Below are positions 1-54,550 of a stretch of 64,000 nt of DNA, one piece after another. The stretch lies in the IMG/VR virus record IMGVR_UViG_3300008110_000023, positions 21,027-85,026 of that record, one strand, 5' to 3'. Source of the DNA: a virus. Position 1 is the first letter of the stretch; every line of letters starts with the position of its first letter. The notes beneath the pieces are model-generated. The model saw nothing but the letters and a program-made list of their open reading frames with translations, was not told the origin of the DNA and ran no database searches. The translations under genes and the position numbers were made by a program.

Positions 1-3000
1 ATTCAATCATTATCAGCGCTTAATTCAGCAGCTGAAGAAAACTTAGAAGGAGATGAGTTAATTGAATGGAATAACTATTATAATAGTATTACATCAGGAA
101 CTACTACTGAAGAAACAACTACTCCAAGTTCAGAAGATACTGCAACAAAAACTTTAAAAGATAACTTTAAAGCTGCTTTTGAAGAGTTTGATATTAATGT
201 ACAACAACAAACTCCTAAAGTTGAAAGAACTGATGATGAAAAATTAAGTGATAGAATACAAGCAGTTCTTGATTTACTTAAAGCTACTAAATTAAATACA
301 GCTACAGTTACTTTAGGACAAATAGTAGAAGAAGTAAACAAATTATTTGATAATGATATTGAGTATACTAAAAAGATATTCAATGACTTAAAGGATATTG
401 TAACTTTACTACAAAAAATGAGAAATAATCCTGAGTATACTTTAACTCCTAATTATACTTTATCTGATGCTGGTATTGTTGAAACAGGTATTACAATAGA
501 ACCTACTATACTCTCTGAAAAAACAAGTAGAGAAGCTAACGTAGAATTAATGTCTAGAGTAAGAGAAAATGATCCTACTCTTAACTTTATTATAGACGGT
601 AAAAAAATTGAAAGTATAGCATCTGTAGCCTCTAAAGCAATATCAGATGAAGGTACTGAAGTAGATGAAACCTTAGGAGTTTTTAGAACTATTTATAATG
701 AAGCTGGTGAATTAATATTTAATCCAAACCAGGACGCTATAGTAGATTCTAATTTTATTACTGAAGGAACTGTTATTACTATTAAAGTAGAAAAAGCTAC
801 AGGTAATATAGAAGAAGATGTTGATACTGCTGAAATAGCAATGTATGTTACTACTCCAGAAGGAGAAAGAAAAATAGGATATATACATTTACCTAGTTAT
901 GCAGGTGTACAAACATTAGCACAAGGAGAGTTATTACCATCTATACAAGAACAACTTACACTTATACAACAACTTAGAAGACAAGTATTAGAAAACCAAG
1001 ATTCTATTCTTACAACTACTGTAACTAAAAGAGGTTTTGGTAATGTAAATAAAAAAGGAAAAGATGCTAATGGTAATATACCAACATCTATCTTAAGTAA
1101 TGCTTTTGCTGGTGACACAAGAGTACATTTAGGTGTAGTAGGGCTTGTTGGTGAAAACAAGAAGATAAATAGAAATGATGAAAGTATTCCTTTATATCAA
1201 GCAACTGATTTAAAAGCAGGGGCATTAGTTATACTTTTACCACATCCAAGTGGAACTGTAGTACCTTACTATGCAATAAGCAATCCAATAGGAGCAGATA
1301 CTGGAGTTACTACTAAAGTAGTAAATACTTTAAAAGACTTCTTAGCACGTAAAATAGATAGAAAACAAACTACTATGGCTATTGAAAGATATGTCTATAC
1401 AGTTCCTGAAGGTAACATAGGCCGTAAAGGTATTGTTATAAAAGAACAAGATGGACAAAGATCTATTATAGTAGATGGTAAAGAAGTTAAAAATGATAAG
1501 AACTTTGCAGAGGTTATAGGTAGTGTATACTTTAACATGAATAAAAGTATCTTAAACTCTAAAGATGGACCTGCTTATGAGAAAGAGATAATGAATTCTA
1601 ACTTAGTGCGTACAGATGTACAAGCTAATCCTGTAACTTATACTAATGAAAGTGGTGAACAAGTAACTGAGAACTCTTATTTCCATCAAGTAACTACAGA
1701 GTTTAGTACTAACTTAAATAAAAGTGCTAAACCAAAAGTACAAACAGAAAGTACTGTATCTGATATAGAAAGAAGAAGACAAGGATTAAAAACTATAAAC
1801 GGCACTTTAAGAGTTGATTTAGGTGGATTTAGTATAGATAATGTATCTAAAGAATTTTATGACAATATACTTCATGCCACAGCAGATCCTTTTTATATAA
1901 ATTTAAAAAAATGGATTAATGAATTTAGAAAAACACAAAAACCATTTGCTGTTATAGATAGTTCTGAAATTATTAATAAATATAATGCAGAATTAGTTGC
2001 ATTAGAAGGTAAACCAGAAGAAACTGGTACTACTACTAAAGAAGAAGCAGAAAGACTTAAAGCTATAGAAGATGCTAAAGCATTTGGTTTTGAAGTAGAT
2101 GATGAATTAGAAGCAGATATTCCTACTATATTTGATACTCAGAATGATTTATCTGCAGAGCAAATAAGTATGATGAAGAATAATCCTACTACTCTATTAG
2201 TACATCCTGAGTTAAATGCAAGTACACAAAATGAAGCTGTATTAAGTATAGCTTATAAAGCATTAACTATAGAACCAGAGACTGAAGAAGTAGAAGGAAA
2301 AGAAGTATTAAAATCTACTAATAAAGAACTAGTTAAAGCTAACTTTATAGAAGGAGCAAGAGTACTTAACAACCTAGCAAAAACTAATCCTACTAATGCT
2401 ACTTATGCTAAAGCAGCTAAGACTATGTCTATAGTAGCAGGAGATGAAGTATTTGAAAAACTCTATGCAAAAGCAACTGAATTTATTAAAGAGATAGGAT
2501 TCTCTACTGAAGAAAGTGGTTTCTATAACCAAATGGAAGCTTTAGATGAAGTAGATGGAGAAGAAGAAAAGATAAATCAATTTATAGATGAAGCAGCTTC
2601 CTATGAAGATAGAAAGACTGGTGCATCTAAAAGATTTAAAAAATTCTTAGCTTTTATTCCAGCAATGGAACTAATAAAAGGAAAAGCAAAGGTATCTAGA
2701 AACTCTTTATTAATGCCTACTTTTAATAACTATGATAGTACTTTTACTATGATAGCTAATATACTTAGTGAGTATAACTACCCTAGTACTGCAGATGGTT
2801 TACAAATGATGATAAACAGACTGACTGCTACAGATATAAAGAATCCAGTTATAAAAGAAGTTGCTGCTAAGTTAGAAAAAGCCCCTCAAAAGATTAAAGT
2901 AGAGTTCTTTAACATCTTTAATCAACAACATGCTAAGTTTAAAACATTAAGACTATACTGGCAAAAAGCTAGAACTTTTAAATATTTCCACCAAGGAATA

Positions 3001-6000
3001 GGAGGAGAAGTAAAAACTAAATACGCTGAAAGATTAAAACCTACTTTAATTAACTCTGATAGAAATAAAGCACAAGAATTAGTAAGAGAAGAAATGCTTA
3101 CTAATTTTAAACAAAAAGGAGTTATTTTAAAAGCTGTTACTAATAAACTAGATAGAAAAACTAATAATACTACTTTAGAAGTTAACACTGAACACAATAA
3201 AGCTATTTATGATGCATTTGTTACTGCACTAAAAGATGATAGTAACTACCAAGTAGATAGTAGAGGTAAAGTAAATACATTATTTTTTACTGAGACTGGT
3301 TTTAAAACTATGTATGACTTACTTAGTAATACAGGTATTAGTATTTCAGAAAATGCATTTGAAGACTTTTTAAATAATCATATAACACAAGATGGTACAA
3401 GAGGTCATAAAGCTATTGCAGGTGAAGTTTTAGGAGTTATCCTAAAAAGTCTTGCTGGAGAAGGTACAGTTATTGATAGTGAAACTGTAGAAAATCCTTT
3501 TGAACTTAATAATCCTTTTTATACAGAAGGAAGTAGTATTAATATCTTAGCTAAGTATGAATACAATACAAGAACAGATGTATTTAGTTCTTCATTTAGA
3601 CATGCTGGTAAAAGTTTCTATACTTTTGTAAGACATACTCCTTTATCTGAATTAGTACTAAAGCTTAAAAATCCTTGGAGAGCTAATAAAAAAGAAAACA
3701 GTTTTATTAGAGGACTTATAACTAGAGATCCATTGTCTAAACATAGTCTGTGGTTAAACAAAATGGTTAATCCTACTAAAAAAGGAGATTCTGTTTTTGC
3801 AGATACATTTAATTTGTTCTATGAAAAAGGATATAGAGATAGTTCTGAAAAAGGATCTACTCCAAAAGACCTTAAGGATTCTATTGAAAAAGAACATGAA
3901 TTAAACAAAATAATTTCTTTCCAAGCACAAGGAAAAGACACTGTTGTATTCCATGCAGATACCCACTCAGATAAAACTACTAAAGCTTTTATACAAGCTA
4001 TTAAACAATCTGTTGATGGTTATACAGGAAATATAGAAGAAGGTATTCAATTATCTGATGATAGTTTAACTGATTTATATAGTTATTTCTTAGCAGAATA
4101 TGATAGGATATTACAAGTAAATGAACAAAATGAAGATCCTAATTTTCCTGCACATAAGAAATTAAAAGGATATCACGGTACTAAAGCAAAACCAGGTTTA
4201 GGAAGTGTATTTAATATGTACCATTTCTTAAACTATGCTGTATTAAAAGACACTAATGCAGATTTAGCAACAATGTTATTTGACTCTGAAGGTAATTTAA
4301 GAAATATACCTAAAGAAGATATGGCAGTAGTCTCTGGAATGGTTAAAGAAGAAATTAACAATAACTTTAATAGACTATTTAAAAAAGTAAAAGAAGACTG
4401 GAGTACTTTAGGTATATTCTTTACAGAAACTAACAAATTAGGGTATACTAGATTGAATATTAACTCCTACATGGATGCTAAATATTATGATAAAGTAGTA
4501 AACACACTTGGTATAGAAAATAAAGCTGTTAAGAAAGTAACAGAGAATTTTAATCAACCAGCAATAGATGCAGAAGTAGCAAAAATACTTGACTATGCTA
4601 TAGTTGATTATGTAGTTAACTACGCTATAGCTACTAATGAAATGCTTATTATAACAGGAGACCCTGCATTACATGGTAAACCTTCTAAAGATAAAGGTAG
4701 TATTAGTAGTAAAAATTGGGTATTAAAGTCTATTGCAGATACATTTATTAACGTAGGTAAACGTAATGCAAGATTACTGGCTTCTGGTAACAAAGGTATG
4801 TTTAGTAAACAAAAGTATAATGTTGCTTTTGTAAATGACATTGAAGAAGTTTCTGAACATGTAAGTGATTATGTATCATGGTTAAAAGAATTTGAACCTG
4901 ATTATATTAAAAAGAAATTTACTTCTAATATGACAGATGCCCAAGAGTTAACTACTGTTGAAGAGCATTTAGAAGTTATGCGTGCTTTTGGTAAAATAAC
5001 TGATAATCAATTTAAAACATTACTAGGTTTATATGATCCAGCTGCTTACAGAGATTTATACAAAGAAGAAGCTCCTGCATATACACAAAAGGAAGTATTA
5101 GAGAATTTAAAAACTGTAATGCAACCTATGAAACCTGTACAAGTACAAAGTGTATTGGACACTGATATTAAAGCTAATGTACAGTATTATATTAAAACAT
5201 CTTCATTCCCTATTATTCCTGCTTTAGTAAAAGGAAAACCTATGGAGTCTGTATTAAAACAAATGAAAGAAGCTAAAGTAGATAGACTTTCATTTGTATC
5301 TGCAGTTAAATTAGGAGAACATGGAGCTAAAAACTTATTTATAGAAGATAAACTTAATACAGAGTTATTTAAAGACAATGTAATTGAATTAGATAGAGAT
5401 GGTTTTAGTATACAGTTAGAAGTACCTTACAAAGAAAACAAAAAAGAAGTAAGAGAAGGTACCCAAAATATGAAACTATTGTTTATGGATTTACCTGATT
5501 CTTTAGAATTAGAATTATCTGAAGGAAACAAAACAGTAGAAGAAGCTAAAAGAGAATATAATAGAATTCATAAAGAAATCATAGATAGCGCTTTAACTAA
5601 GTTATTAGGAGACATAGGAGCAACTGTTACTGAAGATGAAGCAGGATTTAAATCTTATAAAATAAATGATTTTACTAATTTAAGTAAGATACTTAAAGAA
5701 GAAGGAGAATCTAGAGGATATTCAATTAACTCATTACTTGGTCTTGATTTAAATAAAGATGGTCAGTTTAAAATACCATTGACTTTTAACCCAAACTCTG
5801 CACAAATAGAACCTGTTATTACTGCATTATTAAGTAATAGATTAGTTAAACTTAAAATGCCAGGTAAATCCTATGTATTAGGATCTGAAGTTTTAACCTT
5901 AGAACCTTCAATAAATAAAGAAGGAAAACAGACTCAAGCAGATATTAATGTTATTAAAGATATTATATGGGTATCTGATAAATATAAAACACAAGGTAAA

Positions 6001-9000
6001 CTTAAATACTACAGAGAAGAAAACGGTAAACCAGCAATGGCACAAATTATCATGCCTGCTTATTTCTTAGATAAAGAAGGAAAGCAAATAGACATGACTA
6101 AGTTTGTAAAAAATGGTTTTTTAGATACTAGTAAAATAGATAAAGAACTATTACAAATAATGGGCTTTAGGATTCCTACACAAGGACATAACTCCATGAT
6201 GATGTTTGAAGTAGTAGGATTCTTACCTAAAACTAGTGGTGATTTAGTTATAGTTCCTGCAGAAATTGCTGCTCAAATGGGATCTGACTATGACGTAGAT
6301 AAATTATATACTTATCATTATAACTATTATGTAGGTTCAAAATCTGGTAAACTAAAAAAATACAGTAAACCAGGAAATATTAAAACAAAACAAAATAGAT
6401 TGCTTGAAATTCAATCAGCTATTATAATGAATAAAGAAGTAGCGCCTTATATTATGAATCCATTATCTATGGATGATTTAGCAGACGCTATTGTAGAATT
6501 AAATAAAGATAAAAAAGAAGAATGGATAGGTAACTATTCTACTTTATACCAAAGAAATACTTACTTTGATAATGCTGCTGGTAAAATTGGTGTAGGTATA
6601 TCTGCAAATGCTAATACTAATCACGCTGCTTTTCAACAGGCAGGTGTTTATGTTAAAGGAGGAGGCGTTGTATTCTTAAAACCTGACGGTACTCCATATA
6701 GTGATATTGAAAATAATGCTTATGAAAGTAATAGTGTTAGTAAATATAAAGAAGATAAATATACTTATCCTGATCCTTTTAGTGATGATATAATAGACAA
6801 TAAAAAAGATAACAATACTGCTTGGAGATTAGATAAAATATTTACTTTTGATGGTAAACGTATTTCTGATATTATATCTCAATGGCTAGGAGCTTCTGTG
6901 GATAATGCCAAAGAAAAACTACTAGGAGAAGGAGGTATTAATAAGTATAACTTTAATGTGTCTTTGTTAATAGCTAGAACTGGATTTGGTAATAATTGGA
7001 TTATACCTTTTATCAACCAACCTATCTTAAAAGAATATTATGCTATACTACAAAAACTAGAGGATAGTACTGAAAAGTCTTTTGAGGCAGGTAAAAAAGA
7101 AAAAGCAATAGAACAATTATTTAAAAAGTATACAGATTTATATAAAGTTGCAAATCCTAATGAAACTCCTGGAATACAAGGAGTAACATTACTTGAATTA
7201 AAAAGTTCTCTGAATAAGGAAATAAATGCAGATAATGCAGCAGCACAGTTAAATATATTAAAAGCTTTCTTACATTATGAAACTATTAGCTTAGAAGTAG
7301 GTACTGTACAAAAAGCATTAAATACTGATGTTAAGGGATTACCTAAAAATATAGCAGAAACTGCAGAAAAAAGAGATTTTATTAGTGAGCATGGGTATAA
7401 CTCTTCTGTATTAGGAAATGTAGGTAAAATAAGAGAAAAAGTAATATCAGGTGCTTTTATGGAAATACCTAGAATTGCTAGTCAATTATTTAATAGAAAA
7501 ACAGACGGTTCTTATGTATATGCTTATGATAGTTCTGCCTACAAATGGGTTAAAACAGGATTAGCACAAATAGCTAATAAAGAATTTAATACTGAACAAA
7601 TTAATTTAATACATAATAGTTTACAACAGTTTATTTATACTCACCCAGAATTAGGTTTATATGGGGATAATTATGAGGCAGAAAAACAAAGGTTATTATA
7701 CAATGAAAACCTAGCTGATAGATTATTGCAATTACAAGAGAAATACCCAAAAAACTATTTCTTAAGTAAAATAAGTGCTGTAATTGATACTAATGTTAAT
7801 AATCCTAAAAAGATTAAGATAATAAATACTACTGCAGAACAAAAGATCTTTATAGAGAGAATGCAACAAGAATGGGAATCTGCTTTTTATGCAGAACCAG
7901 AACTTGCCAGATTTGCAGAAGATATGGCTAAGTACACAATGATGTTTAATGCTAATCAATTTGGAGCTTCTAACTTAATAAAATACTTACCTTTTAACTA
8001 TCTTAACATTATAGGTGCAGGTAAAGTATTAAATGGTTTAGAATTAGAAGATTCTTTAAGTCTTATAAACTTTATACCACAATTCTTACAGCACAATCCA
8101 GAGTTTGCTCCTTTTGCTAAAGAAAGTAATTTCCTTGAAAATAGCGCAGTTTATAAAAAAGATGCTGATGGTAAAGATACTGATATTATAGAAGGATTTA
8201 AATTACCTAGTTTAGCTTTAGAATTTGATAAAAATGATGCACGTAATTTAATACAAATTATTAAAGTAGAAGGAGAAGAAATACCTGTATATCCAAGTTT
8301 CTTATCTGTATATGGAGGAGCTGAATTAGGAAGATTACTTTTTATAAAAGTAAATGAAGATTTTTATAGAAGAGTAGACACATTAGGAAATACTGATTTT
8401 ACTGAATATAACTTTAGTAAAAATGGTTTAGCTTCTACAATACTAGAAGAGCAAAAAGGTGTTGTAGATATTAACAAAAAAACAAATACTATAGAATCTA
8501 CTACAACTGATTTAGATCAACTTTATTTTACAACTTCAAGTGTTCATTCTTTACTAGAAAATATTGTTATTAGAAATACTTTTGCTACAGATCCTTTAGC
8601 AGAAGCTTATGGTGCCTTAGCAGAAAAACTACTAGAACAACCAGAAAATGGATATAGAGTAGTAGTTGATAATAGTATACCAGCAGTAGGAGCTCATAAT
8701 AGAGTAGAAAAATTAATTAAACTAAATAAAGAAGCTTTATTAAAAAATAATGAATTAGAAATACAACGTGTTATATTACATGAACTTATACACAAAGAAA
8801 CTGTAGCTAAATTAGTAGATAATAAATTCTTAGAAACAAAAGAAGGTCAAGCTATTACTAAAGTATTTAATAGTTTTAAAGAACAACTACAAAATAAAGC
8901 ATTATCTGATACTGAAAAAACTAGGGGTATTCCAAATGAATTCCTAGAAGCAGAAGTATTTAAGTTATTAACTGAGGCTAGTTTTGGAGAAAATAAAAAA

Positions 9001-12000
9001 GATTTAAATATACTATCTTTAAATAGAATTACTAATAGTGATATAAATAGTCCTGCTTTTAAAGAACTTATGAAGTCTTTATCTACTAATCTTGCTAAAG
9101 TAGATAAATTTAAAGCTAGTAGTAAATTAGAACCAGGTACTGAAAGATATGAAGCAGTTGCTAATTATATTAAAGATACTTTTACAGCAAATAATATTAA
9201 GGAATTAAAACCTAAATATTACATGTACACTAGTATTTTAGAGTTTGCTACTGAAGCTTTAACTAATACAAAGACTCAAGAGTATTTAAAAACATTTACT
9301 ACTATTAATCAAAAAGGAGAAAAAGTAAGTTTATGGAAACAGTTTATAGATGCTTTAACTACTTTACTTAAGTTTAATAATGTAAATAGAACATTAGCAG
9401 AAGATGCTATTGAAAGTATTATAGATGTAATTGATTATGGTAAACCAGCTGAGATAATTACTCCACCATCTATTAGTGTTAAAACTTTTGATAAAAAAAA
9501 TCTATTTAAAGTAACACCTATACAAACTGCTGACAAAAAAGCAACTATCAAAGCCAGTATAGCTACTCAATATATTGGTTTTGGTGAAGGCATTGCAGGA
9601 AGTTCTACAGAACTATATAGACAACAAGCTGGAGCTTTAGCTAATACAGGTAACTATTCTGTTAATGATGTAATATTTGTATCTGTTCCTGGTAGAAGAG
9701 GTACTGAAATACAACAAAAAACACAACAAGATAAAACTATTAAAGAAGCTATTAAAGCTGTAGAAGCTGGAGCTACAATCCTTACAGATAATAAAGCTTA
9801 TATTGATTCTAATTCTTATAACACAGGAGAAAAAAGACTTTATAATGCTATGAAAGAACAAGGTTATGACTATTCTGAAATTATAATTGACGGTCAACTT
9901 ATTGGTACTTGGAGTAAACCTACTCAACCAGTTACTGAAGTAGTAGAAACTAAAGAAGTTATAAATAAAATATCAACTCCTATATTAAGTAAAAAATTAG
10001 TATATACTGTATATAATCCTATTAGTGGAAAAAATCAAACTAAAAATGGTTATAAATTAACTATTCCTGAATTTCCAAATTTTGAAGGTTATATTACACA
10101 AGAAGAAATAACACAAGAAAGTAAAGAAGGAAAACCAGAACTTAATAAAAAAACAAAAGAATGGACTATAGAAATAGTACATCCAACTAAAGGAGTACTG
10201 AATTTTCCTGTAGGCTGGGCAAAAACTAAAAAAGAAGTTATAGATACTTTTGTTAATGATATTAATGAAAAACATTCTAAATCAGAAGAAGGTAAAAAAA
10301 TATTGCAAGAAATTGGTATTGATTTTATTGGCATACAACCACAAGTTGAAGTAAAAACAACAGAAGTTATATTAAAATACTATGGTGCTTATTACAAATA
10401 CAATATTGATAAAGATGGTAACCAAGTAGGAGCTTCTTTATATTCTCAAAATGGAGTAGATTATATAAGTACTTCTAGAGATTATGCTTCTATAATAGCA
10501 AGTAATAACTACACTAATGCAACTACTGGTGAAGTATTTGGTAAACCAAAAGAACCTGTAATAATACCTGAAGAAGAAGGAGATAATGCTAAATATGAAT
10601 TGTTTCCTGGAGTATTTGCCAATGAAGGACAGAAAGAAGCTTTAGATAAACTAGATTCTTTTATGGCATCTACAGGTAAAGATAATGAAGCCTTTGTATT
10701 AGTTGGAAGAGGAGGTACTGGTAAGACTACTATTATTAAAAAGATGATAGGTAAATTTCCAAATTTAAGAATAGGAGGAGCAACTGTATCACATGCAGCT
10801 AAAGATATCTTAGGAAATTCTATTGGAAAAGGAAATGCATTTACTTTAGCTAGTTTATTAGGAATAAAATTAGATGAAACTACAGGTAAATTTGAAATTG
10901 ATGGTTTTAGTAGAAGAACAAAAGGAATTCCTATTGAAAAATTAGACATTATTATAATTGATGAATGTTCTATGGTTTCTGATTTATTGTTTGAAGAATT
11001 ATTTAAATATAAAAAACCTAGTGCTAAAATTATCTTTATGGGAGATAATGTCCAATTAGCTCCTGTAGAACAAGAAACAGATTCTATTACTTTTAAAGCT
11101 AATAAAAACCCAAATAATTTTGCTAAGTTAACAGAACCTATGAGATTTAGTGCTGAAAATCCTATTTTTGCATTGTCTTATATAGTAGCAGATAACGTAG
11201 AAGCTCCTGAAAGTAAAGTATATACTATCCCACAATCAAGTAGAGTAACTACTTTAAAAGAAGATACTGGTATTATATTTACTAATAGTGAAGAAACTGC
11301 TTTATCTATGTTGGTAGAAGACATTAAACAAGAACTTGAAAAAGAAGTTCCTAATACAAAAGCAGTAAAAGCAGTTACTTTTAATAATGAATTAAATAAT
11401 GCTACACAATCTGTTAAAAATCTTAATCTTAAAATAAGACAAAAATTATGGGGAGAAGAAGCTAAAAATCAATTTAATATAAATGAACTTTTAACTGCTT
11501 ATTCTACTTTTGGAGGAGAAAATCCTGCCTTTTATAACTCAGAAAACCTTATAGTAAAAGAAGTGTCTGAAGTAAAAGATGTTGAATACAACATAGGTGT
11601 GTTTGATTTTAAATTTAAAACTGTTTATTTAACTTTACAAAAAAGTGATGGTACAATAGTAAGTAATATACCAACAGTTGCCAAAGAAGATTTAGAAAGA
11701 TACAATAAAGAAGTAAAGGCTTTAAAATCAAATCCTGATGGAAGAATAAAATCAATAGGTTTTAAATTATCTGAAGAATTAGCTAATTTACAATATGGCT
11801 ATGCTGTTACTTCTCATAAAGCACAAGGTAGTACTTATACTAATGTATATGTTTTTGAAGACAATATCTTAGGCAATAGTAATTTAAGTGCCCCAAAAGA
11901 TAAAAACAGAGCTTTATATACAGCTATTACTAGAGCTAGTAAAAAACTAGTATTAATGGGTAAGTTTAATATAAACAATGAGATGAATAATCTTAATGAT

Positions 12001-12063
12001 ATTGATATTTTCAGTACCTTTGATGATGAAACACTTGATAAACAAATAAAAGCTTGTGAATAA
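1..12063 (+). CDS. Giant virion RNA polymerase polyprotein (5' partial), fused to metalloprotease-like and SF1 helicase modules
   Basis: The reading frame is open from base 1 to the TAA at 12061-12063. The first ATG (418) is therefore probably internal and the gene starts outside the window; 4020 residues are visible. Counting from base 1, the DYDVD motif at residues 2096-2100 (6286-6300), inside a segment reading GSDYDVDKLY, matches the DxDxD magnesium-binding loop of crAss-like virion RNA polymerases (phi14:2 gp66 family). HELIH at 2927-2931 is an HExxH zinc-protease signature. Residues about 3540-4010 form an SF1 (RecD/Dda-like) helicase: Walker A GRGGTGKTT at 3569-3577, Walker B with DE at 3654-3655, MGDNVQLAP near 3680, SHKAQGS near 3938 and a TAITRA motif near 3974. 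In this family the protein is packaged in the capsid and injected to transcribe early genes. The polymerase call is strong; the roles of the protease and helicase parts are inferred. Confidence 0.88.
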   Translation: MQSLSALNSAAEENLEGDELIEWNNYYNSITSGTTTEETTTPSSEDTATKTLKDNFKAAFEEFDINVQQQTPKVERTDDEKLSDRIQAVLDLLKATKLNTATVTLGQIVEEVNKLFDNDIEYTKKIFNDLKDIVTLLQKMRNNPEYTLTPNYTLSDAGIVETGITIEPTILSEKTSREANVELMSRVRENDPTLNFIIDGKKIESIASVASKAISDEGTEVDETLGVFRTIYNEAGELIFNPNQDAIVDSNFITEGTVITIKVEKATGNIEEDVDTAEIAMYVTTPEGERKIGYIHLPSYAGVQTLAQGELLPSIQEQLTLIQQLRRQVLENQDSILTTTVTKRGFGNVNKKGKDANGNIPTSILSNAFAGDTRVHLGVVGLVGENKKINRNDESIPLYQATDLKAGALVILLPHPSGTVVPYYAISNPIGADTGVTTKVVNTLKDFLARKIDRKQTTMAIERYVYTVPEGNIGRKGIVIKEQDGQRSIIVDGKEVKNDKNFAEVIGSVYFNMNKSILNSKDGPAYEKEIMNSNLVRTDVQANPVTYTNESGEQVTENSYFHQVTTEFSTNLNKSAKPKVQTESTVSDIERRRQGLKTINGTLRVDLGGFSIDNVSKEFYDNILHATADPFYINLKKWINEFRKTQKPFAVIDSSEIINKYNAELVALEGKPEETGTTTKEEAERLKAIEDAKAFGFEVDDELEADIPTIFDTQNDLSAEQISMMKNNPTTLLVHPELNASTQNEAVLSIAYKALTIEPETEEVEGKEVLKSTNKELVKANFIEGARVLNNLAKTNPTNATYAKAAKTMSIVAGDEVFEKLYAKATEFIKEIGFSTEESGFYNQMEALDEVDGEEEKINQFIDEAASYEDRKTGASKRFKKFLAFIPAMELIKGKAKVSRNSLLMPTFNNYDSTFTMIANILSEYNYPSTADGLQMMINRLTATDIKNPVIKEVAAKLEKAPQKIKVEFFNIFNQQHAKFKTLRLYWQKARTFKYFHQGIGGEVKTKYAERLKPTLINSDRNKAQELVREEMLTNFKQKGVILKAVTNKLDRKTNNTTLEVNTEHNKAIYDAFVTALKDDSNYQVDSRGKVNTLFFTETGFKTMYDLLSNTGISISENAFEDFLNNHITQDGTRGHKAIAGEVLGVILKSLAGEGTVIDSETVENPFELNNPFYTEGSSINILAKYEYNTRTDVFSSSFRHAGKSFYTFVRHTPLSELVLKLKNPWRANKKENSFIRGLITRDPLSKHSLWLNKMVNPTKKGDSVFADTFNLFYEKGYRDSSEKGSTPKDLKDSIEKEHELNKIISFQAQGKDTVVFHADTHSDKTTKAFIQAIKQSVDGYTGNIEEGIQLSDDSLTDLYSYFLAEYDRILQVNEQNEDPNFPAHKKLKGYHGTKAKPGLGSVFNMYHFLNYAVLKDTNADLATMLFDSEGNLRNIPKEDMAVVSGMVKEEINNNFNRLFKKVKEDWSTLGIFFTETNKLGYTRLNINSYMDAKYYDKVVNTLGIENKAVKKVTENFNQPAIDAEVAKILDYAIVDYVVNYAIATNEMLIITGDPALHGKPSKDKGSISSKNWVLKSIADTFINVGKRNARLLASGNKGMFSKQKYNVAFVNDIEEVSEHVSDYVSWLKEFEPDYIKKKFTSNMTDAQELTTVEEHLEVMRAFGKITDNQFKTLLGLYDPAAYRDLYKEEAPAYTQKEVLENLKTVMQPMKPVQVQSVLDTDIKANVQYYIKTSSFPIIPALVKGKPMESVLKQMKEAKVDRLSFVSAVKLGEHGAKNLFIEDKLNTELFKDNVIELDRDGFSIQLEVPYKENKKEVREGTQNMKLLFMDLPDSLELELSEGNKTVEEAKREYNRIHKEIIDSALTKLLGDIGATVTEDEAGFKSYKINDFTNLSKILKEEGESRGYSINSLLGLDLNKDGQFKIPLTFNPNSAQIEPVITALLSNRLVKLKMPGKSYVLGSEVLTLEPSINKEGKQTQADINVIKDIIWVSDKYKTQGKLKYYREENGKPAMAQIIMPAYFLDKEGKQIDMTKFVKNGFLDTSKIDKELLQIMGFRIPTQGHNSMMMFEVVGFLPKTSGDLVIVPAEIAAQMGSDYDVDKLYTYHYNYYVGSKSGKLKKYSKPGNIKTKQNRLLEIQSAIIMNKEVAPYIMNPLSMDDLADAIVELNKDKKEEWIGNYSTLYQRNTYFDNAAGKIGVGISANANTNHAAFQQAGVYVKGGGVVFLKPDGTPYSDIENNAYESNSVSKYKEDKYTYPDPFSDDIIDNKKDNNTAWRLDKIFTFDGKRISDIISQWLGASVDNAKEKLLGEGGINKYNFNVSLLIARTGFGNNWIIPFINQPILKEYYAILQKLEDSTEKSFEAGKKEKAIEQLFKKYTDLYKVANPNETPGIQGVTLLELKSSLNKEINADNAAAQLNILKAFLHYETISLEVGTVQKALNTDVKGLPKNIAETAEKRDFISEHGYNSSVLGNVGKIREKVISGAFMEIPRIASQLFNRKTDGSYVYAYDSSAYKWVKTGLAQIANKEFNTEQINLIHNSLQQFIYTHPELGLYGDNYEAEKQRLLYNENLADRLLQLQEKYPKNYFLSKISAVIDTNVNNPKKIKIINTTAEQKIFIERMQQEWESAFYAEPELARFAEDMAKYTMMFNANQFGASNLIKYLPFNYLNIIGAGKVLNGLELEDSLSLINFIPQFLQHNPEFAPFAKESNFLENSAVYKKDADGKDTDIIEGFKLPSLALEFDKNDARNLIQIIKVEGEEIPVYPSFLSVYGGAELGRLLFIKVNEDFYRRVDTLGNTDFTEYNFSKNGLASTILEEQKGVVDINKKTNTIESTTTDLDQLYFTTSSVHSLLENIVIRNTFATDPLAEAYGALAEKLLEQPENGYRVVVDNSIPAVGAHNRVEKLIKLNKEALLKNNELEIQRVILHELIHKETVAKLVDNKFLETKEGQAITKVFNSFKEQLQNKALSDTEKTRGIPNEFLEAEVFKLLTEASFGENKKDLNILSLNRITNSDINSPAFKELMKSLSTNLAKVDKFKASSKLEPGTERYEAVANYIKDTFTANNIKELKPKYYMYTSILEFATEALTNTKTQEYLKTFTTINQKGEKVSLWKQFIDALTTLLKFNNVNRTLAEDAIESIIDVIDYGKPAEIITPPSISVKTFDKKNLFKVTPIQTADKKATIKASIATQYIGFGEGIAGSSTELYRQQAGALANTGNYSVNDVIFVSVPGRRGTEIQQKTQQDKTIKEAIKAVEAGATILTDNKAYIDSNSYNTGEKRLYNAMKEQGYDYSEIIIDGQLIGTWSKPTQPVTEVVETKEVINKISTPILSKKLVYTVYNPISGKNQTKNGYKLTIPEFPNFEGYITQEEITQESKEGKPELNKKTKEWTIEIVHPTKGVLNFPVGWAKTKKEVIDTFVNDINEKHSKSEEGKKILQEIGIDFIGIQPQVEVKTTEVILKYYGAYYKYNIDKDGNQVGASLYSQNGVDYISTSRDYASIIASNNYTNATTGEVFGKPKEPVIIPEEEGDNAKYELFPGVFANEGQKEALDKLDSFMASTGKDNEAFVLVGRGGTGKTTIIKKMIGKFPNLRIGGATVSHAAKDILGNSIGKGNAFTLASLLGIKLDETTGKFEIDGFSRRTKGIPIEKLDIIIIDECSMVSDLLFEELFKYKKPSAKIIFMGDNVQLAPVEQETDSITFKANKNPNNFAKLTEPMRFSAENPIFALSYIVADNVEAPESKVYTIPQSSRVTTLKEDTGIIFTNSEETALSMLVEDIKQELEKEVPNTKAVKAVTFNNELNNATQSVKNLNLKIRQKLWGEEAKNQFNINELLTAYSTFGGENPAFYNSENLIVKEVSEVKDVEYNIGVFDFKFKTVYLTLQKSDGTIVSNIPTVAKEDLERYNKEVKALKSNPDGRIKSIGFKLSEELANLQYGYAVTSHKAQGSTYTNVYVFEDNILGNSNLSAPKDKNRALYTAITRASKKLVLMGKFNINNEMNNLNDIDIFSTFDDETLDKQIKACE

Positions 12064-12064
12064 T

Positions 12065-15000
12065 ATGGATTGTCCCAATTTAAATTTAAAATTCTATAAG
12101 AAGTTAACTTCTCAGTTTGGTAAGAAAACTGCCTATCAATGGCATAATATTATAAAAACTGAGAGGTTTATAACCTGGTTTGGTTTTGGCAAAGTAGATA
12201 GTGAAGGTATGCCTAATATTGACAGGTTTGGTAACATTACTAATGGTAAAAGCCAAACTTATAGGGTATTAGGTAAAAGTAACTTTAACAGTGTTAAGGA
12301 CTTAACTAACTTCTTATCTAGTAATTATACTGAAGGTATTAGATTATATAAAGGTAGTTACTACTTAGCTAAAACTATGGATAGTAGAGAGTATGGTAGA
12401 GCTACTTTAGAAAGTCTAAATAAGCATTATCCAGGACTAATAACTCAATTACCAGTAAGTGATAATGTTTTAAAAGCAGATTATACACACAGACTAGAGA
12501 TCAATAAAAACTATTTTAATAAGCCTAACTTAGAAGAACAATTTGATATAGATGTAGATGCATTACCAGACATGCCAATGCAACTTACTAATATACCTAG
12601 ATTAGAATCTGGAGAAAAAACTATAAGTATAAGACCTACTAATTATAGAACAGGTATATATAAGTATGGAGATAAAGCTTATAAAATAAGTAATAAAGAT
12701 ACATGGAACGTTGATGAATACCTTGATTTTCATAATATTACTTTAGAAGAACTTATAGAAAGATTTTCAGGAGATGATCAAATTAAATATGAACATATAC
12801 AAGATTGGTTACAAGGTAAAGGACCTAAAATGTATGTATATGAAATTAATAGGAATATTGATGAAAATGATGTTAATACATTTACTGATGATCCAAGATA
12901 CACATCTGAGATTAAAAGATTAGAATTATTAGTAATTAAATTAGAAAGAAGAAAAAAACTATCTACTTTATCAGCTAATGAAAAAGAGTCTTTAAGACTA
13001 CAAATTAAAGATTTAAAAGACACAATTAAAGAACTTAAAGATGATGCTAGTAGGAGTTTATCTTTAATAATAAGTAATGCAGAAACACATATAGCACAAG
13101 TAAGAAATATATTAGCTAAAGAAGTTAACTATCATAATGTAACAAGTTCTTTAGAGTTAGTAATGCCCTATATACAACTATTTAATGAATTTACTGAATT
13201 AACAGCAGTAGAACAAAAAAAGGTAGATGCTCTTATTGCTGCTATTAGTAAATTAGAAGCAGAAGCTAAGAAAGCAATGGCTATAAAAGCTAATAGTGTA
13301 GTAAGAAATGTAGTAGGAAAAGAAATTCTAATTAATGGAGTTGCTATTCCAGTTAAAGATGATAATACTATATCAGCATATTCTTTAGGATCTTCTAATT
13401 CTACTAATGCTATAGCTCAGACTATAACTAAAAAGATAAAAGATGTAGAAAATACAGTTGATTCTGAAAACAGATTCTTTTTAGAAGAACATGAAAGACT
13501 TGTACAAGAATTAAAAGAATACCAAAAAGCAAAAGGTATTAAAGAAGAAGACATGTATAGATATATGATACAAGAAGATCATGAAGGAAATCCAAATGGT
13601 CTTTTTGTAGGAGCTTTAAACTCTGGATACTATGAAGCACAAAAAGAAGCTAAAAGTAAAAGTCTTGTTGATTTCTTAAAATTCTTAGGTAAAGAACACA
13701 CTCTTTCTGTAAATGAAGAAAAGTTTGATGCTTATAAAGAAAGTATAAAAAAATGGGCAGATGATCAAACATGGATAGCATCTCCTAAATCAGGAAAAAC
13801 TAATGAAGAATATAAACAAAGTGTAATAACTAAGAAAATAAACCAAGCTAATCCTCAGACTTTAATAAATATTGTTAACAAATTACAAGAGGGAAAAACT
13901 ATTACTTATGGAGAAACAAAGTTTGTAGATCAGTTTTTGAAAAACAATAACATGCGTCTATTAAACAAACAAGCTCATAGTAAATGGAAAGATGGTAAGT
14001 ATGATACTATTATGGAGTTAGATGAAGACAATCCTCTTAAAAAGTTTTATACGCATTTTACTACTAATATAAACAAAGGTAGAAGAGAACTTGGTGAGTT
14101 CTTTGATGAAAGGTATTTACATTACAATTATATTCCAGAAGTAAGTAAAAATAGCAGTTTCTTTAGAGAGATTGGTAATAAACTTAAGAATTCATTCACA
14201 GAGTTTCCTAACCATAGTAGTGTTACTGATACTGATATTATAACAGGAAGAGCAATGCATCAAATACCTGTATGGTCTTTATCTGGTAAAATGGATGCCT
14301 CTCAAAAATCATATGATTTAGGTAATGTACTAAAAGTATTTACAGCTCAGAAGTTTAATAAGATATACAAAGAACAAATACAAGATGATGTTAATTTACT
14401 ACTTACAGTATTAAATGAACAAGAAATGTATGAAACTGATAGTAAAGGTAATATTATTGAACAAATAGTTGGAGGTAAAAAAGTACCTGTAATTAAAAAG
14501 AATCCTAATAGTAATACTTATAAAGCTGCTCAATATTTAGTAGATTCTAATATCTATGAACAAAGACAGAATAAAGATGGTGTATTAATGACTATCTATG
14601 ATAAGGATACTAAAGAAAGATTAGCAGAGTATGTTAAAATACAAAAAGAAAGAGGTTATTCAGATGCTGATATAAATAAAAACAAATATGTTGGTTTAAA
14701 AGAAACTGAAATTAATGAGTATCAAATAATAGAAAAACAATATAAAGAAGTTACTGGTAAAAAGATAGCTAATAACCTTATATATTTAACTACTTTAAAA
14801 GGATTAGCTTTAAATCCATTCTCAGGTATATCAGAGTTTATTCAAGGGTTAACATCTGTATTTACTGAAGCAGCTGGTAATGAATTTTATAGTGATGCTA
14901 ATGCTAAAAGAGCTTTAGGTTTAATACTTCATTCTACTAATCCTAAAATCAATAGAAAGAAAATACAACAACTATTAGGAGTATTTGGCTTAGATGAAGC

Positions 15001-16009
15001 TGTGCATACAGAAGTAGAAACAGACTCTTTATTAGATAAATCTTTTTACTTTTTAAAAGAAGCCAACTACAGAACAAGGGGTTTGAATTTATTAGCTATG
15101 CTAGACGCTGAAATAGTTAAAGATAAAAATGGAGTGGAACATAAACTACTAGATGTAATAGATGTAGAAAAAGGACATGTTGTTTTAAACAGTAATTTTG
15201 ATGAATTGTTTACTACATTTGACGCTGATGGTAAACCTAAGTTAACTGCAGAGTTTAATAAACTACAACAAAAGATAGCTTTTATGACTAAGTCTTTATT
15301 ATCTAGAGATAGTAGTAAAGACCCTATTTTAACAAATAAAAGTGCTATTGGTAGACTACTAGGACAGTTTAGACAGTCTTGGATGTTTGAAGGTATTAAC
15401 AGAAGATTTGGTAAAGAAAAAGATATACCATTATTAGGTAGAAAAACTAAAGGTTACTATGTAAGTGTACTTATTAACAAAGATGGTAAAGTAGACTTTG
15501 GTAGAGCTTTAAGATTACTATGGAGTTATAAGTTTGATAAAGATACTTTAGCCAAAGAAAATCTATCAGATTTAGATGAAGCCAATATTAGAAAAGTACT
15601 AAGAGAGGCCAGTATAGTTGCTTCTACATTAGCTGCTTATGCAATAGCTACTTTAGCATTAATGGGAGATGATGATGATGAAGAAGAGGAAGGTATATTA
15701 TACAGATCAGTATTTACTTATATACTAAACCAATCTTATAGAGTAAATAGAGATTTAACTTTCTACTTAAACCCTGACTCTGCTGCAGAGCTTACTAAAA
15801 ATATAATGCCTGCATTAAAAACAGTTACAGATCTTAAGGATATCTTTGATGCATTTACAAGAACTCTTTTATTTGATCCTTATATATATGAAGGTACTAA
15901 AAAAGAAAGACTAAGATTACTTAAAGAGTTTGAAGAGGCATTTCCTTTTATTAATCAACCAAGGAGAATGTATAAAAAAATATCAGAATCTGATAAGTTT
16001 TTACAATAA
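12065..16009 (+). CDS. Second giant virion (cargo-like) protein, function unknown
   Basis: This 1314-1315 aa protein follows the polymerase gene after one base. The frame also offers a GTG at 12056 overlapping the previous stop, but ATG 12065 is the likelier start. In crAss-like phages the RNA polymerase gene is followed by further very large genes whose products are packaged as injected cargo, and the position suggests the same here. Residues about 260-420 are rich in Lys, Glu and Leu and look helical or coiled-coil. Near the C-terminus there is one hydrophobic helix (around IVASTLAAYAIATLALMG) followed at once by a run of Asp and Glu, then a basic tail. I see no catalytic motif. The helix could be a membrane-insertion segment used in DNA ejection, which is speculation. 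Confidence 0.75.
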   Translation: MDCPNLNLKFYKKLTSQFGKKTAYQWHNIIKTERFITWFGFGKVDSEGMPNIDRFGNITNGKSQTYRVLGKSNFNSVKDLTNFLSSNYTEGIRLYKGSYYLAKTMDSREYGRATLESLNKHYPGLITQLPVSDNVLKADYTHRLEINKNYFNKPNLEEQFDIDVDALPDMPMQLTNIPRLESGEKTISIRPTNYRTGIYKYGDKAYKISNKDTWNVDEYLDFHNITLEELIERFSGDDQIKYEHIQDWLQGKGPKMYVYEINRNIDENDVNTFTDDPRYTSEIKRLELLVIKLERRKKLSTLSANEKESLRLQIKDLKDTIKELKDDASRSLSLIISNAETHIAQVRNILAKEVNYHNVTSSLELVMPYIQLFNEFTELTAVEQKKVDALIAAISKLEAEAKKAMAIKANSVVRNVVGKEILINGVAIPVKDDNTISAYSLGSSNSTNAIAQTITKKIKDVENTVDSENRFFLEEHERLVQELKEYQKAKGIKEEDMYRYMIQEDHEGNPNGLFVGALNSGYYEAQKEAKSKSLVDFLKFLGKEHTLSVNEEKFDAYKESIKKWADDQTWIASPKSGKTNEEYKQSVITKKINQANPQTLINIVNKLQEGKTITYGETKFVDQFLKNNNMRLLNKQAHSKWKDGKYDTIMELDEDNPLKKFYTHFTTNINKGRRELGEFFDERYLHYNYIPEVSKNSSFFREIGNKLKNSFTEFPNHSSVTDTDIITGRAMHQIPVWSLSGKMDASQKSYDLGNVLKVFTAQKFNKIYKEQIQDDVNLLLTVLNEQEMYETDSKGNIIEQIVGGKKVPVIKKNPNSNTYKAAQYLVDSNIYEQRQNKDGVLMTIYDKDTKERLAEYVKIQKERGYSDADINKNKYVGLKETEINEYQIIEKQYKEVTGKKIANNLIYLTTLKGLALNPFSGISEFIQGLTSVFTEAAGNEFYSDANAKRALGLILHSTNPKINRKKIQQLLGVFGLDEAVHTEVETDSLLDKSFYFLKEANYRTRGLNLLAMLDAEIVKDKNGVEHKLLDVIDVEKGHVVLNSNFDELFTTFDADGKPKLTAEFNKLQQKIAFMTKSLLSRDSSKDPILTNKSAIGRLLGQFRQSWMFEGINRRFGKEKDIPLLGRKTKGYYVSVLINKDGKVDFGRALRLLWSYKFDKDTLAKENLSDLDEANIRKVLREASIVASTLAAYAIATLALMGDDDDEEEEGILYRSVFTYILNQSYRVNRDLTFYLNPDSAAELTKNIMPALKTVTDLKDIFDAFTRTLLFDPYIYEGTKKERLRLLKEFEEAFPFINQPRRMYKKISESDKFLQ

Positions 16010-18430: not shown

Positions 18431-19195
18431 TTAAATATGTTTCCATAAATCTTTTCTAACAATCTTATGTACATGGCCTTTAGTTATTCCATACTTAGCT
18501 ACTAACTCAGGAATTGTATATCCTTGTTCTCTAAGTTTTCTTAATTCAAGTACTTGTTCTTCATTGATTTTAGAAAATCTGTTTTTACTGCCTGTTAATT
18601 GTGCTCTCTTTTGAACTATCCTATTTATTACAACAGCCTTTCTATCTTCTTCAAAGTCTTTTCTAATATCTTTTCTAATTCTTGTTAGCCATTCTCTGAT
18701 AGTCTTTTCTTTACCACTTGTTATTTCAACAACTTCAAGAGTATTATAACCTTGTATATACAATTTCAAAATTGTAGATTGATTTTTATTTTTATGGTTA
18801 TCAATATACTCTGTTAAGTCTTTTGCAAATAATCTACTTTCTGGAGTATCCAATGAAGGTATTTGGTAAAAGATATTATTAACTTCAGTATCATCATTCT
18901 CATGTTCTTCTGTAATAAAATCAGAAAATGGTAATTCTACTCCTCTTATTCTTGCTATGGAAGCCACTCTATGTTTTAATCTAAAAGCTCTATGTTTAGC
19001 TATTTTAACTAAAAAGGCTTTTAGTGCTTGTACGGATAAAAATTCATTAGTTGTGTTCTTAACATACTTATGAAATTCAATATAAGCTTCTTGAATGGCA
19101 TCTTCACATAAATTAAATTCATATTTACTATTAAGTAGACAAGTCATTAAATATGTCCTGTACTTATTAAAATCATAAATGTTAGCTTCTATCAT
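18431..19195 (-). CDS. Sigma-70-family-like transcription factor with C-terminal HTH
   Basis: This 254 aa protein resembles an ECF-type sigma factor. Residues about 20-75 (EDAIQEAYIEFHKYV, then ALKAFLVKIAKHRAFRLKHR) look like region 2. After a linker, residues about 140-185 (LYIQGYNTLEVVEITSGKEK followed by IREWLTRIRKDIRKDF) look like the region 4 helix-turn-helix. A second HTH follows near the C-terminus (LRKLREQGYTIPELVAKYGI then TKGHVHKIVR). It may direct host RNA polymerase to later phage promoters. A plain DNA-binding protein derived from a sigma factor is the alternative. Confidence 0.65.
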   Translation of the reverse strand: MIEANIYDFNKYRTYLMTCLLNSKYEFNLCEDAIQEAYIEFHKYVKNTTNEFLSVQALKAFLVKIAKHRAFRLKHRVASIARIRGVELPFSDFITEEHENDDTEVNNIFYQIPSLDTPESRLFAKDLTEYIDNHKNKNQSTILKLYIQGYNTLEVVEITSGKEKTIREWLTRIRKDIRKDFEEDRKAVVINRIVQKRAQLTGSKNRFSKINEEQVLELRKLREQGYTIPELVAKYGITKGHVHKIVRKDLWKHI

Positions 19196-19196
19196 A

Positions 19197-19442
19197 TTAT
19201 TGCATTATTTCATCAATGTTAATATTATTTTCATCATATAAATTCATTATCTTTTGAAATACAATATCTAATACTTCATATGGATTAGTTATAGTAGATG
19301 TTTCTATTTCACTTTCAAGAGTTCTTTTAAGGTTATATTGTACTTGAAATAGTACACAAGCCATATCTAATGCTTTTAAGCATCTTAAATGTTCCATTCT
19401 CTCTTCTGGTTCATTTAAATCAAATTCTATTTTTGCTATCAT
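19197..19442 (-). CDS. Small hypothetical protein
   Basis: 81 aa, acidic and helical, with no recognised motif. It lies one base upstream of the sigma-like gene and overlaps the preceding gene by four bases, so it belongs to the same operon. Confidence 0.65.
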   Translation of the reverse strand: MIAKIEFDLNEPEERMEHLRCLKALDMACVLFQVQYNLKRTLESEIETSTITNPYEVLDIVFQKIMNLYDENNINIDEIMQ

Positions 19443-19747
19443 TTGTCTAGTTCTTTATAAATTAATCTTAAAATATCTTTAGCTAAATCACCTGCAGATT
19501 TGCCACCATGTTCTTGGTTATGCATTATATACTTAGCTACCTGATCATCTAAAGACATTATCTTTATTAAATTAGGTAACTTAATATATGATACATTTAA
19601 ATCACCTAACCAATAAGGTATACTAGTTCCTCTTTCACCATGAGGTACTTTTTGTGTGTACCATAAGCCATAAGGGATATCTTTGGGCACACTTGTTCCA
19701 ACGGCTATATACCTACCGTTTGGTTTTCTTCTGTATAAAGTTTCCAT
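19439..19747 (-). CDS. Conserved phage hypothetical protein (YRRKPNGRY N-terminus)
   Basis: 102 aa starting METLYRRKPNGRYIAVG, a style of N-terminus that recurs in phages of Bacteroidota as far as I recall. The first half is beta-like with Gly, Pro and aromatics (YGLWYTQKVPHGERGTSIPY); the second half is helical. No function is known to me. Overlaps the following gene by four bases. Confidence 0.65.
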   Translation of the reverse strand: METLYRRKPNGRYIAVGTSVPKDIPYGLWYTQKVPHGERGTSIPYWLGDLNVSYIKLPNLIKIMSLDDQVAKYIMHNQEHGGKSAGDLAKDILRLIYKELDK

Positions 19748-19954
19748 TTACTGAGTTATGTAGTGATTAATAACTATATCCAAAGCCATGTTGTAGAGTT
19801 GTAGTCTTAATAAATCTTGTATAGTATGATTAAGATGTACTTCTACATCTTTTTGTTCTTTAATATACTGAGCTATAAGACCACAACCTACAGGTATTGG
19901 AATATCCATTACCCCATCTTTAGTATAACTTTCAATGATTTCTTTAGGAGTCAT
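19748..19954 (-). CDS. Small hypothetical protein
   Basis: 68 aa, helical, no recognised domain. It abuts the next gene and overlaps the previous one by 11 bases within the same leftward operon. Confidence 0.6.
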   Translation of the reverse strand: MTPKEIIESYTKDGVMDIPIPVGCGLIAQYIKEQKDVEVHLNHTIQDLLRLQLYNMALDIVINHYITQ

Positions 19955-20213
19955 GTTTTAAATGTAAATTATTAAACCTTTCTAAAGCTCTATCATAATC
20001 CATTATACACCATGCATATTTACCAAATGCAGTACTTTTAGGATAAGACTCACAATCATATCTTTTATTGATTTTCTTTTTAAATACTTCATAGTGAGTT
20101 ATTCCTTCATGTTCTACTTTGTAAATAAAACCATGTTCATTCTTGTCTAATTGTGTAAAGAGAAAGCCTTTAACTTCCCCTCTACCAACAAACTCTTTCT
20201 CTAATAGTTTCAT
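19944..20213 (-). CDS. Small hypothetical protein
   Basis: 89 aa with mixed strands and helices and several Tyr, Phe and His (MKLLEKEFVGRGEV start). No family recognised. It overlaps the exonuclease gene stop by four bases, so it is probably coupled to it. Confidence 0.6.
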   Translation of the reverse strand: MKLLEKEFVGRGEVKGFLFTQLDKNEHGFIYKVEHEGITHYEVFKKKINKRYDCESYPKSTAFGKYAWCIMDYDRALERFNNLHLKHDS

Positions 20214-20965: not shown

Positions 20966-20967
20966 AA

Positions 20968-22267: not shown

Positions 22268-22676
22268 GTAGTAATTTTATAAATTCATAAAAAGTATCTT
22301 TTGTCATAATTACCAATTCACCTTCTCCCTTCTTTTTATGAAATATAACATTAGGAAATGGCAATCTTTCTGGCATATTCTTTCCTAATAATTCTACCAT
22401 ACTGTCAAAGATCTCTTTATACTTTACACCTGATTGTACATTCTTTGCTTGTACATTATAAGGAATACCATATAAATCTACTTTACAGTCATCTAATAAT
22501 TTACTAGCTTGCCTACTTGTTTTGCAATAAGGATAGCCTAAGTCTCTGAACTCTTTTGCTAGTTGTCTCTCATAATTTTGACCAGCAGTTCTATTCCTTT
22601 TTCCAGTATTTTTATACTTAGGCTTTGCAGCAGGTAATTCATTTTTATTCTTCACAGATCTTCCCCTCTTTCTCAC
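22254..22676 (-). CDS. Holliday junction resolvase-like PD-(D/E)XK nuclease
   Basis: 140 aa with a basic N-terminus and a nuclease core: GQNYERQLAKEF (catalytic Glu near residue 35), then DDCKVDLYGI and the VQAKNVQSG motif (Asp, then Gln-Ala-Lys), as in archaeal Hjc-like and phage recombination endonucleases. It would cut branched intermediates during replication or packaging. Its stop overlaps the flap nuclease start by 14 bases, suggesting coupled synthesis. Confidence 0.85.
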   Translation of the reverse strand: MRKRGRSVKNKNELPAAKPKYKNTGKRNRTAGQNYERQLAKEFRDLGYPYCKTSRQASKLLDDCKVDLYGIPYNVQAKNVQSGVKYKEIFDSMVELLGKNMPERLPFPNVIFHKKKGEGELVIMTKDTFYEFIKLLHGTK

Positions 22677-22684
22677 TATTTATG

Positions 22685-22968: not shown

Positions 22969-22978
22969 ATTTATGTTA

Positions 22979-53098: not shown

Positions 53099-54550
53099 AT
53101 GCTAATATCAGAATTACAGATGTTTGAACCTAAGGATTTTTCTGGCCTAGTTACAGATAATCACTTAGGAGCTATGTACGCTACACAACCTATTGTAGTG
53201 TCAAATTTAATTGAACAAATTTACAAAGTTAACTTAGGAGAAGACTTATTGTCTTTTATGGACCAATTTTCTACTTTAGAAATTGATGATGATCTTCCTT
53301 TTGAGTGGTGGTTGCAAGGTGCTGAAAACAAAAACTATCCATTAGTATCAGCTACTTATACTGGTGTTAAACCAGGTATTGGTGTAACTAGATTTACATT
53401 AACTTTTGCTGAAAGAGCTTTTGAAGCTTCTGACGTTATAGTAGGTGAAGAAACTGAAACTTACTTTTTACGTGTTACTAAAGATCCAGAACCAAATGGT
53501 ACTAACTGGGATTTTGAAGTAGAATTAGTAACTGGTGATGTTAACTTGTTTATTCCAATTGAAGAACTTGCTGCTGGAAAAAGATTCTCTAAAGAGTATT
53601 CTTTAGTAGAACAAACTCTTTCTAAAAGAGGTGGAACTGTTTATCATACATCTCCTTTCAAAATGCAAAATACTTGTTCTTTTATCCGTAAGGAATATGA
53701 AGTACCAGGTAACATGATTAAAAAAGGTGTTAACAGACCATTGGCTTTTGCTTTCAAAGATGCTGCAGGTAAAACTCAAACTACTTGGATTAAAAAACTA
53801 GATTGGGATTTTATGAAAGAATTCCGTAGAGAAAAAGCTTTATTAGCTATGTACGGACAACCAAATAAAACTTCTCAAGGTACTTACTTGAATAAAGGTG
53901 AATCTGGATATGAGATCAGACAAGGTGCTGGTTTAATGGCACAAGTTGCTCCAGCTAACGTATACTACTACAATACTTTCTCTTTAGATTATTTATTTGA
54001 AGTATTAATGTCATTGTCAGTTGGTAAATTACCTGAAGATTCCCGTAAATTTGTACTAGGTACAGGTGAATATGGTTTTGTACAATTCCACAAAGCTGTA
54101 GATGCTAAAGGTGCTAACTTCTCTTACAACAACGCTGGTAACCGTATTACTGGAACTGGTGATAACCTAAGATTAGGAGGACAATTTAAGTCTTACGGTT
54201 TCTTAAATGGTATTGAAATTACCTTGATTAAAATACCTCATTTTGATGATATCACTAGGGAGAAAGCAATGCATCCAGAAGGTGGTACTGTAAAATCTAG
54301 AGAATATTTGATCATGGATTTTGGTACTCAATCAGGTGTTGATAACATTCAAAAAGTAGTTGTTAAAGGTGAAGCAGATATGTTCCGTTACCTACCAGGT
54401 TTAAGAGATCCATTCTCTGCTCAAGGTGGTTTAACTCCAGGTCTTACTGCATCTACTGTAGATGGTTACAAAGTAATGAAAGGCTCTATCATGGGTGTTA
54501 AAGTTCATAACCCAATGAGATTAGCTAGATTTATCCCAAACATTGGATAA
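53099..54550 (+). CDS. Major capsid protein
   Basis: 483 aa. Position after portal and scaffold-like genes, soluble alpha/beta layout and codon choice close to that of highly expressed genes (GGT, GCT, ACT) fit an HK97-fold capsid protein of crAss-like phages. The C-terminal part around LRDPFSAQGGLTPG and SIMGVKVHNPMRLARF looks like the P and A domain ends. Not proven by motif, but the gene order leaves little choice. Confidence 0.85.
   Translation: MLISELQMFEPKDFSGLVTDNHLGAMYATQPIVVSNLIEQIYKVNLGEDLLSFMDQFSTLEIDDDLPFEWWLQGAENKNYPLVSATYTGVKPGIGVTRFTLTFAERAFEASDVIVGEETETYFLRVTKDPEPNGTNWDFEVELVTGDVNLFIPIEELAAGKRFSKEYSLVEQTLSKRGGTVYHTSPFKMQNTCSFIRKEYEVPGNMIKKGVNRPLAFAFKDAAGKTQTTWIKKLDWDFMKEFRREKALLAMYGQPNKTSQGTYLNKGESGYEIRQGAGLMAQVAPANVYYYNTFSLDYLFEVLMSLSVGKLPEDSRKFVLGTGEYGFVQFHKAVDAKGANFSYNNAGNRITGTGDNLRLGGQFKSYGFLNGIEITLIKIPHFDDITREKAMHPEGGTVKSREYLIMDFGTQSGVDNIQKVVVKGEADMFRYLPGLRDPFSAQGGLTPGLTASTVDGYKVMKGSIMGVKVHNPMRLARFIPNIG

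Follow-up and report, generated by a model that had tools for sequence, protein, structure and literature searches.

A gene assigned to a crassvirus encodes, in one chain of 4,765 amino acids, a virion-type RNA polymerase (RNAP), a zincin-like metallopeptidase domain and an SF1 helicase, and all three modules are real. The giant protein is very probably an injected, multi-bead machine for early transcription, in which the zincin would dock on or regulate the polymerase and the helicase would clear or open the template. Each of the three modules belongs to a known family, and crassviruses are characterised by giant virion RNAPs (vRNAPs). The open literature searched (accessible text) yielded no description of: (i) the order RNAP-zincin-helicase in one chain; (ii) its frequency; (iii) the repeated exchange of the helicase; (iv) the sharing of the zincin with phage N4.

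The gene and its genomic context

The window, i.e., the whole stretch of 64,000 nucleotides analysed here, opens mid-gene; in its virus record of 85,026 bp it occupies positions 21027-85026. An uninterrupted frame leads from its first base to a stop at 12061-12063 and comprises 4,020 residues, which the first-pass annotation had given as a minimum. The upstream sequence was examined and the full-length gene recovered (18792-33089 of the record): it starts 2,235 bases upstream of the window, at base 18792, and its 4,765-residue product is free of internal stops. The part inside the window (1..12063, + strand) encodes residues 746-4765; adding 745 to a window residue number gives the number in the full protein. 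Hydropathy reveals no strong transmembrane helix in the N-terminal region.

The motifs noticed at the outset are correctly placed (DYDVD at 2096-2100, HELIH at 2927-2931, helicase motifs from 3569). By composition, a protein of such length is expected to contain by chance ~0.035 HExxH and ~0.03 DxDxD-type motifs. The homology evidence for the modules far outweighs this argument and settles the question.

Matches to crassvirus ring protein 1, muzzle protein and cargo protein 1 are found just upstream of the giant gene. Downstream are the crassvirus major capsid protein (53099..54550, + strand; PF23898, E 8e-120), which places the phage, ring protein 3/4 and a family A DNA polymerase. Judged by these capsid, ring, muzzle and cargo-1 families (PF23898, PF25710, PF24228, PF25731, PF25725), the phage is a member of Crassvirales. 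The giant gene lies directly behind the cargo genes, i.e., at the usual place of crassvirus vRNAP genes. Its stop is overlapped by the start of the next gene (12056..16009, + strand), which encodes a partner protein of 1,317 aa; the C-terminal part of this partner is homologous to residues 973-1410 of phi14:2 gp65 and to the crAss001-type RNAP-associated subunit.

RNA polymerase, zincin and helicase modules

The RNAP region (4516..7485, + strand; window residues 1506-2495) is homologous to phi14:2 gp66 (PDB 6vr4; phmmer E 3e-19), and its relatives are encoded on at least 529 viral contigs. The DYDVD metal-binding motif (6286..6300, + strand; residues 2096-2100) was aligned with gp66 and with 69 sequences: D591, D593 and D595 are invariant in 69/69, the DxDxD is also kept in the gp66 alignment, and K206, K227, K265, Q300, Q317 and R552 are likewise invariant. 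The AlphaFold2 model of the region (pLDDT 83.5, pTM 0.85) matches 6vr4 with a Foldseek E of 1.9e-36 and a VIA Z of 30.1 over 829 aligned residues. The next structural matches by VIA are QDE-1 and RDR2 (Z 16-17), then P23-45 gp96 (~10), and the DxDxD region is a local match to the cellular RNAP large subunit (beta-prime type). Structure prediction had been proposed as the check on the initial reading of DYDVD as a crAss-type polymerase motif, the absence of a double-psi barrel counting against it; the barrel fold was found. The region is thus a two-barrel RNAP of the crAss-phage type (gp66 family). In the accessible text on phi14:2, gp66 is described as the virion RNAP transcribing the early genes. 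The giant's RNAP would in the same way transcribe early genes independently of the host RNAP, as demonstrated for gp66.

The zincin-like domain (8506..9375, + strand; residues ~2836-3125) is modelled by AlphaFold2 with a pLDDT of ~90 over the core, pLDDT being low in the linker and in the adjoining family-less domain. The model contains three strands (model residues 111-114, 122-125 and 130-133), the active-site HExxH helix (143-164) and a second helix (304-313) bearing E3081. HELIH (8779..8793, + strand; residues 2927-2931) provides the predicted first two zinc ligands and catalytic Glu, and E3081 (9241..9243, + strand; within ILEFATEAL) is the predicted third ligand. In the alignment of 48 zincins, E2928, H2931 and E3081 are invariant (48/48), and the first His, H2927, is kept in 42/48. 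The segment first described as metalloprotease-like therefore has both a zincin fold and a third ligand, whose absence from the predicted structure had been set as the argument against it. The domain is present in 61 loci according to an iterated profile, mostly in the same ORF and just C-terminal of the RNAP; in phi14:2 it lies in gp65, whose gene adjoins that of gp66. A tblastn with the isolated HELIH region gave no match in phage records, and the homologues surfaced with profiles.

The best structural match of the zincin is the C1 domain of the N4 vRNAP (residues 2124-2365, VIA Z 8.4), followed by selecase and Spartan. The profile comparison agrees (hhalign against N4 gp50: 96%, E 4.6e-9), and 25 of the 48 zincin members match phrog_2206, «virion RNA polymerase». 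The zincin also resembles the ejected internal virion proteins 9sfn (E 9e-17) and 8vb2 (E 7e-8). By contrast with the zincins, the RNAP alignment compared with the N4 RNAP region gives 0.5%, i.e., no similarity of the polymerase cores. One zincin family thus accompanies two unrelated injected polymerases, the T7-like one of N4 and the two-barrel one of crAss-like phages. Fusions of N4-type RNAP and zincin are described in the accessible portions of Iyer et al. (PMC5512222); the profile and structural link between the N4 and crAss-phage zincins is a result of the present analysis. Since the zincin directly follows the polymerase in both, its role is probably one that injected polymerases share, be it packaging, threading, docking or early take-over. 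It would most likely dock on or regulate the polymerase or, at entry, act on a target of the host or of the phage.

Several variants were observed among the zincins. The six RNAP-linked members without the first His read KExxH (L028, L038, L047) or EExxH (L023, L040, L072) and retain the Glu, the second His and the downstream Glu; the KExxH members form one clade, with helicases fused. L018 has the RNAP closest to that of the window (45%); its giant ORF ends just after HEFLH and the remaining zincin, including the third-ligand EF, lies in an overlapping frame (L018:14440-15141), which may be a frameshift, a split gene or a sequencing error. A second type of zincin (YHEAFH...EVEExLAExF) closes the gp67-type part ahead of the RNAP in L006, L007, L010, L011, L012 and L013 (delta and other crassviruses). 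It was considered as the same domain; the profile comparison covers the HExxH helix only (33%), and it is regarded as a different type.

Between zincin and helicase lies a domain of ~124 aa without family (9550..9921, + strand), common to L070, L082, L059 and hypothetical proteins of Vibrio phages, the latter match being weak. It is N-terminal in L070 and, in L059 and L082, lies in a separate helicase ORF. It looked by eye like DprA/SLOG, and this assignment was rejected, no match being found in Pfam, PHROG, NCBIfam or PDB.

The helicase (10594..11973, + strand; residues 3532-3991) is of the SF1B Dda/RecD2-like type. The complete set of SF1 motifs announced by the first-pass annotation is present and extends to motifs Q, I, II, III, IV, V and VI, with Walker A at 3569, DECS at 3654, GDNVQL at 3681, HKAQGS at 3939 and TAITRA at 3974. 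Conserved columns of the helicase alignment are Q23, GxxGTGK, DE-S, GD..Q, R194, K.QG and Y.A..R. Domain matches are AAA_30 (6e-17) and UvrD_C_2 (1e-11); profile matches are the Dda-like helicase phrog_325 (7e-66), Dda (1e-61) and Deep-Sea Helicase 9 (4e-70).

Module exchange, virion location and alternative readings

A first protein scan for close relatives returned the same virus only, and the relatives emerged from an alignment scan. When slices of the chain are mapped onto phi14:2 and other crassviruses, gp67 is matched by its first 330 residues, gp66 by residues 1915-3250 and gp65 by the zincin, the remaining C-terminal part of gp65 sitting in the 1,317-aa partner. Among 63 complete related ORFs (2,420-6,259 aa), 43 have RNAP and zincin: 14 with the helicase, 29 without. 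On a tree of 77 RNAPs, obtained by a short search without bootstrap, the helicase state changes 16 times, at least 14 of these changes being forced by supported branches; a single origin of the fusion, which was considered, is not supported by this tree. The tree of the helicases has long branches and is resolved only in part. For the helicase of the window, the nearest counterpart is that of L055 (46%). For its RNAP, L018 (45%) and L021 (40%) are closer than L055 (29%), i.e., the modules recombine independently of one another. To judge from the RNAP tree, the helicase is a swapped module and not a one-off, and its recurrent attachment points to a functional coupling of unwinding and virion transcription. 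As a side observation, the giant RNAP gene of L008 (cr130_1) contains 74 in-frame TAG and its next gene 31, with no other stops, which is consistent with TAG being read as an amino acid.

The protein had been called a virion polypeptide from the start. Its only support is homology and gene order: for phi14:2 gp65/66/67, the annotation gives detection by MS/MS, and crAss001 gp47/49/50 were detected in virions (PMC10172136). The giant protein is thus inferred to be in the virion, and the packaging of its helicase likewise; the helicase could also be cut off and never packaged. In crAss001, the virion contains three RNAP-related cargo proteins, ejected of necessity partly unfolded (PMC10172136). 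In N4, the vRNAP consists of domains flexibly strung together, and its C-terminal part, to which the HExxH domain belongs, is inhibitory to the polymerase (PMC12633501). By analogy with these virion homologues, the giant would be packaged with the genome and ejected whole, its small domains passing the tail one after another, before the DNA or together with it (a route proposed for N4 and crAss001); it would then refold in the cell and start early transcription, the next gene supplying the remainder of the gp65-type partner. The tethered helicase would most likely open the entering DNA or remove roadblocks, and the initial suggestion that it clears DNA ahead of the polymerase is plausible. It may perhaps serve replication later, since a search of the genome found no other SF1 helicase. 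A more specific version is tentative, though worth considering: polymerase and covalently attached SF1 motor would act together to draw in or open the genome on entry and to strip it of proteins in the first round of transcription, and the zincin would be a module for docking or entry of which two unrelated injected polymerases make use.

The helicase might instead be a replication helicase that merely shares the vRNAP gene and acts after late synthesis or after release, outside the injected polymerase. We consider this unlikely. It agrees with the lack of another SF1 copy in the giant's genome, with the standalone Dda-like helicases of other crassviruses, encoded close to genes for polymerase, UDG and SSB, and with the fact that fused and standalone copies seldom occur together (11 genomes with a fused copy, 11 with a standalone one, 1 with both); mutual exclusion of the two forms is a trend only, however (Fisher p 0.06), the related genomes being non-independent. 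Against it, 13 genomes have neither copy, so that replication can do without this helicase; in cultured crassviruses, vRNAP genes are expressed late (PMC10136315); and an internal start for a separate helicase was sought without success, the nearest ATG being at full-protein residues 4029 and 4300 and none just upstream. The sole genome with both copies among 34 searched, G022 (record of L081), has a giant with an additional zincin N-terminal to the RNAP.

It is somewhat less likely still that the chain is a self-processing polyprotein, its zincin releasing polymerase, zincin and helicase as separate proteins, whether before packaging or afterwards. The first-pass annotation had proposed a possible protease for self-cleavage, and this was not borne out. 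The N4 vRNAP, with the same domain, is packaged unprocessed according to the accessible portions of PMC5512222, and the structure of the recombinant full-length protein was solved uncleaved, without degradation (PMC12633501); the first His is lost in 6/48 relatives, and the 29 complete RNAP-zincin relatives without helicase have none to release. The separate genes of phi14:2 can be read both ways: its modules, gp65 and gp66 among them, are made as distinct proteins. The frame break inside the L018 zincin would fit self-processing, as would autoproteolysis, proposed in the same portions of Iyer et al. for some polyvalent proteins, e.g., P1 DdrB. HExxH and Glu are intact in the giant of the window; because most members keep all the residues of catalysis, a real protease role, self-cleavage included, may still be envisaged, although it is a weaker reading than that of a zincin which docks on or regulates the polymerase. 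Finally, a chance fusion or an assembly artefact, conceivable for a metagenome contig, is ruled out: an assembly join is unlikely because a second contig (IMGVR 3300008267_000304) has the same ORF at 99.99% identity (2 mismatches in 18,701 bases, ~18.7 kb), 14 complete relatives bear all three modules, and the published genomes cr118_1 and cr50_1 likewise fuse RNAP and SF1 helicase.

Comparison with known systems

The reading of the giant as an injected transcription machine can be compared with six systems. In Cellulophaga phage phi14:2, gp67, gp66 and gp65 are the counterparts of its N-terminal, RNAP and zincin modules, and gp66 has the same RNAP fold and catalytic residues; phi14:2, however, has three separate polypeptides and no helicase, in contrast to the single helicase-bearing chain of 4,765 aa and its partner of 1,317 aa. 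Coliphage N4 gp50 (Schitoviridae; PDB 9pnr) is likewise a giant single-chain injected RNAP, with the same order (N-terminal domain, RNAP, zincin C1) and a homologous zincin. It differs by its T7-like single-subunit RNAP, unrelated to the two-barrel RNAP, by the lack of a helicase and by another C-terminal region (C2).

The polyvalent proteins, as presented in the accessible portions of Iyer et al. (2017), carry several enzymatic domains per DNA-delivered protein, with zincin as a hub domain. The giant chain combines at least two distinct effector domains and would be delivered with the DNA. The RNAPs treated in those portions are N4-type rather than two-barrel; the helicases there belong to SWI2/SNF2-type SF2 or UvrD-like SF1. 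In P23-45 gp96 (PMC10770324), a two-barrel vRNAP is also fused to a giant virion protein, in this case the tail tape measure, zincin and helicase being unreported in the accessible text.

The Fipvunavirus giants FpV4 and Fpv1 have RNAP then the same zincin in one chain, as in the window, whereas their helicase is a separate gene. In Suoliviridae (delta crAss), cr118_1 gp14 and cr50_1 gp059 join, like the giant, RNAP and C-terminal SF1 helicase in a chain of 4.8-4.9 kaa; their zincin (YHEAFH) is of the different type and N-terminal to the RNAP, while that of the giant is C-terminal to it. The claims of a shared zincin and of helicase coupling are testable in cultured Crassvirales or with recombinant protein. 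The deposited giants of cr118_1 and cr50_1, annotated as «exonuclease V» and «DNA helicase», respectively, are virion RNAPs.
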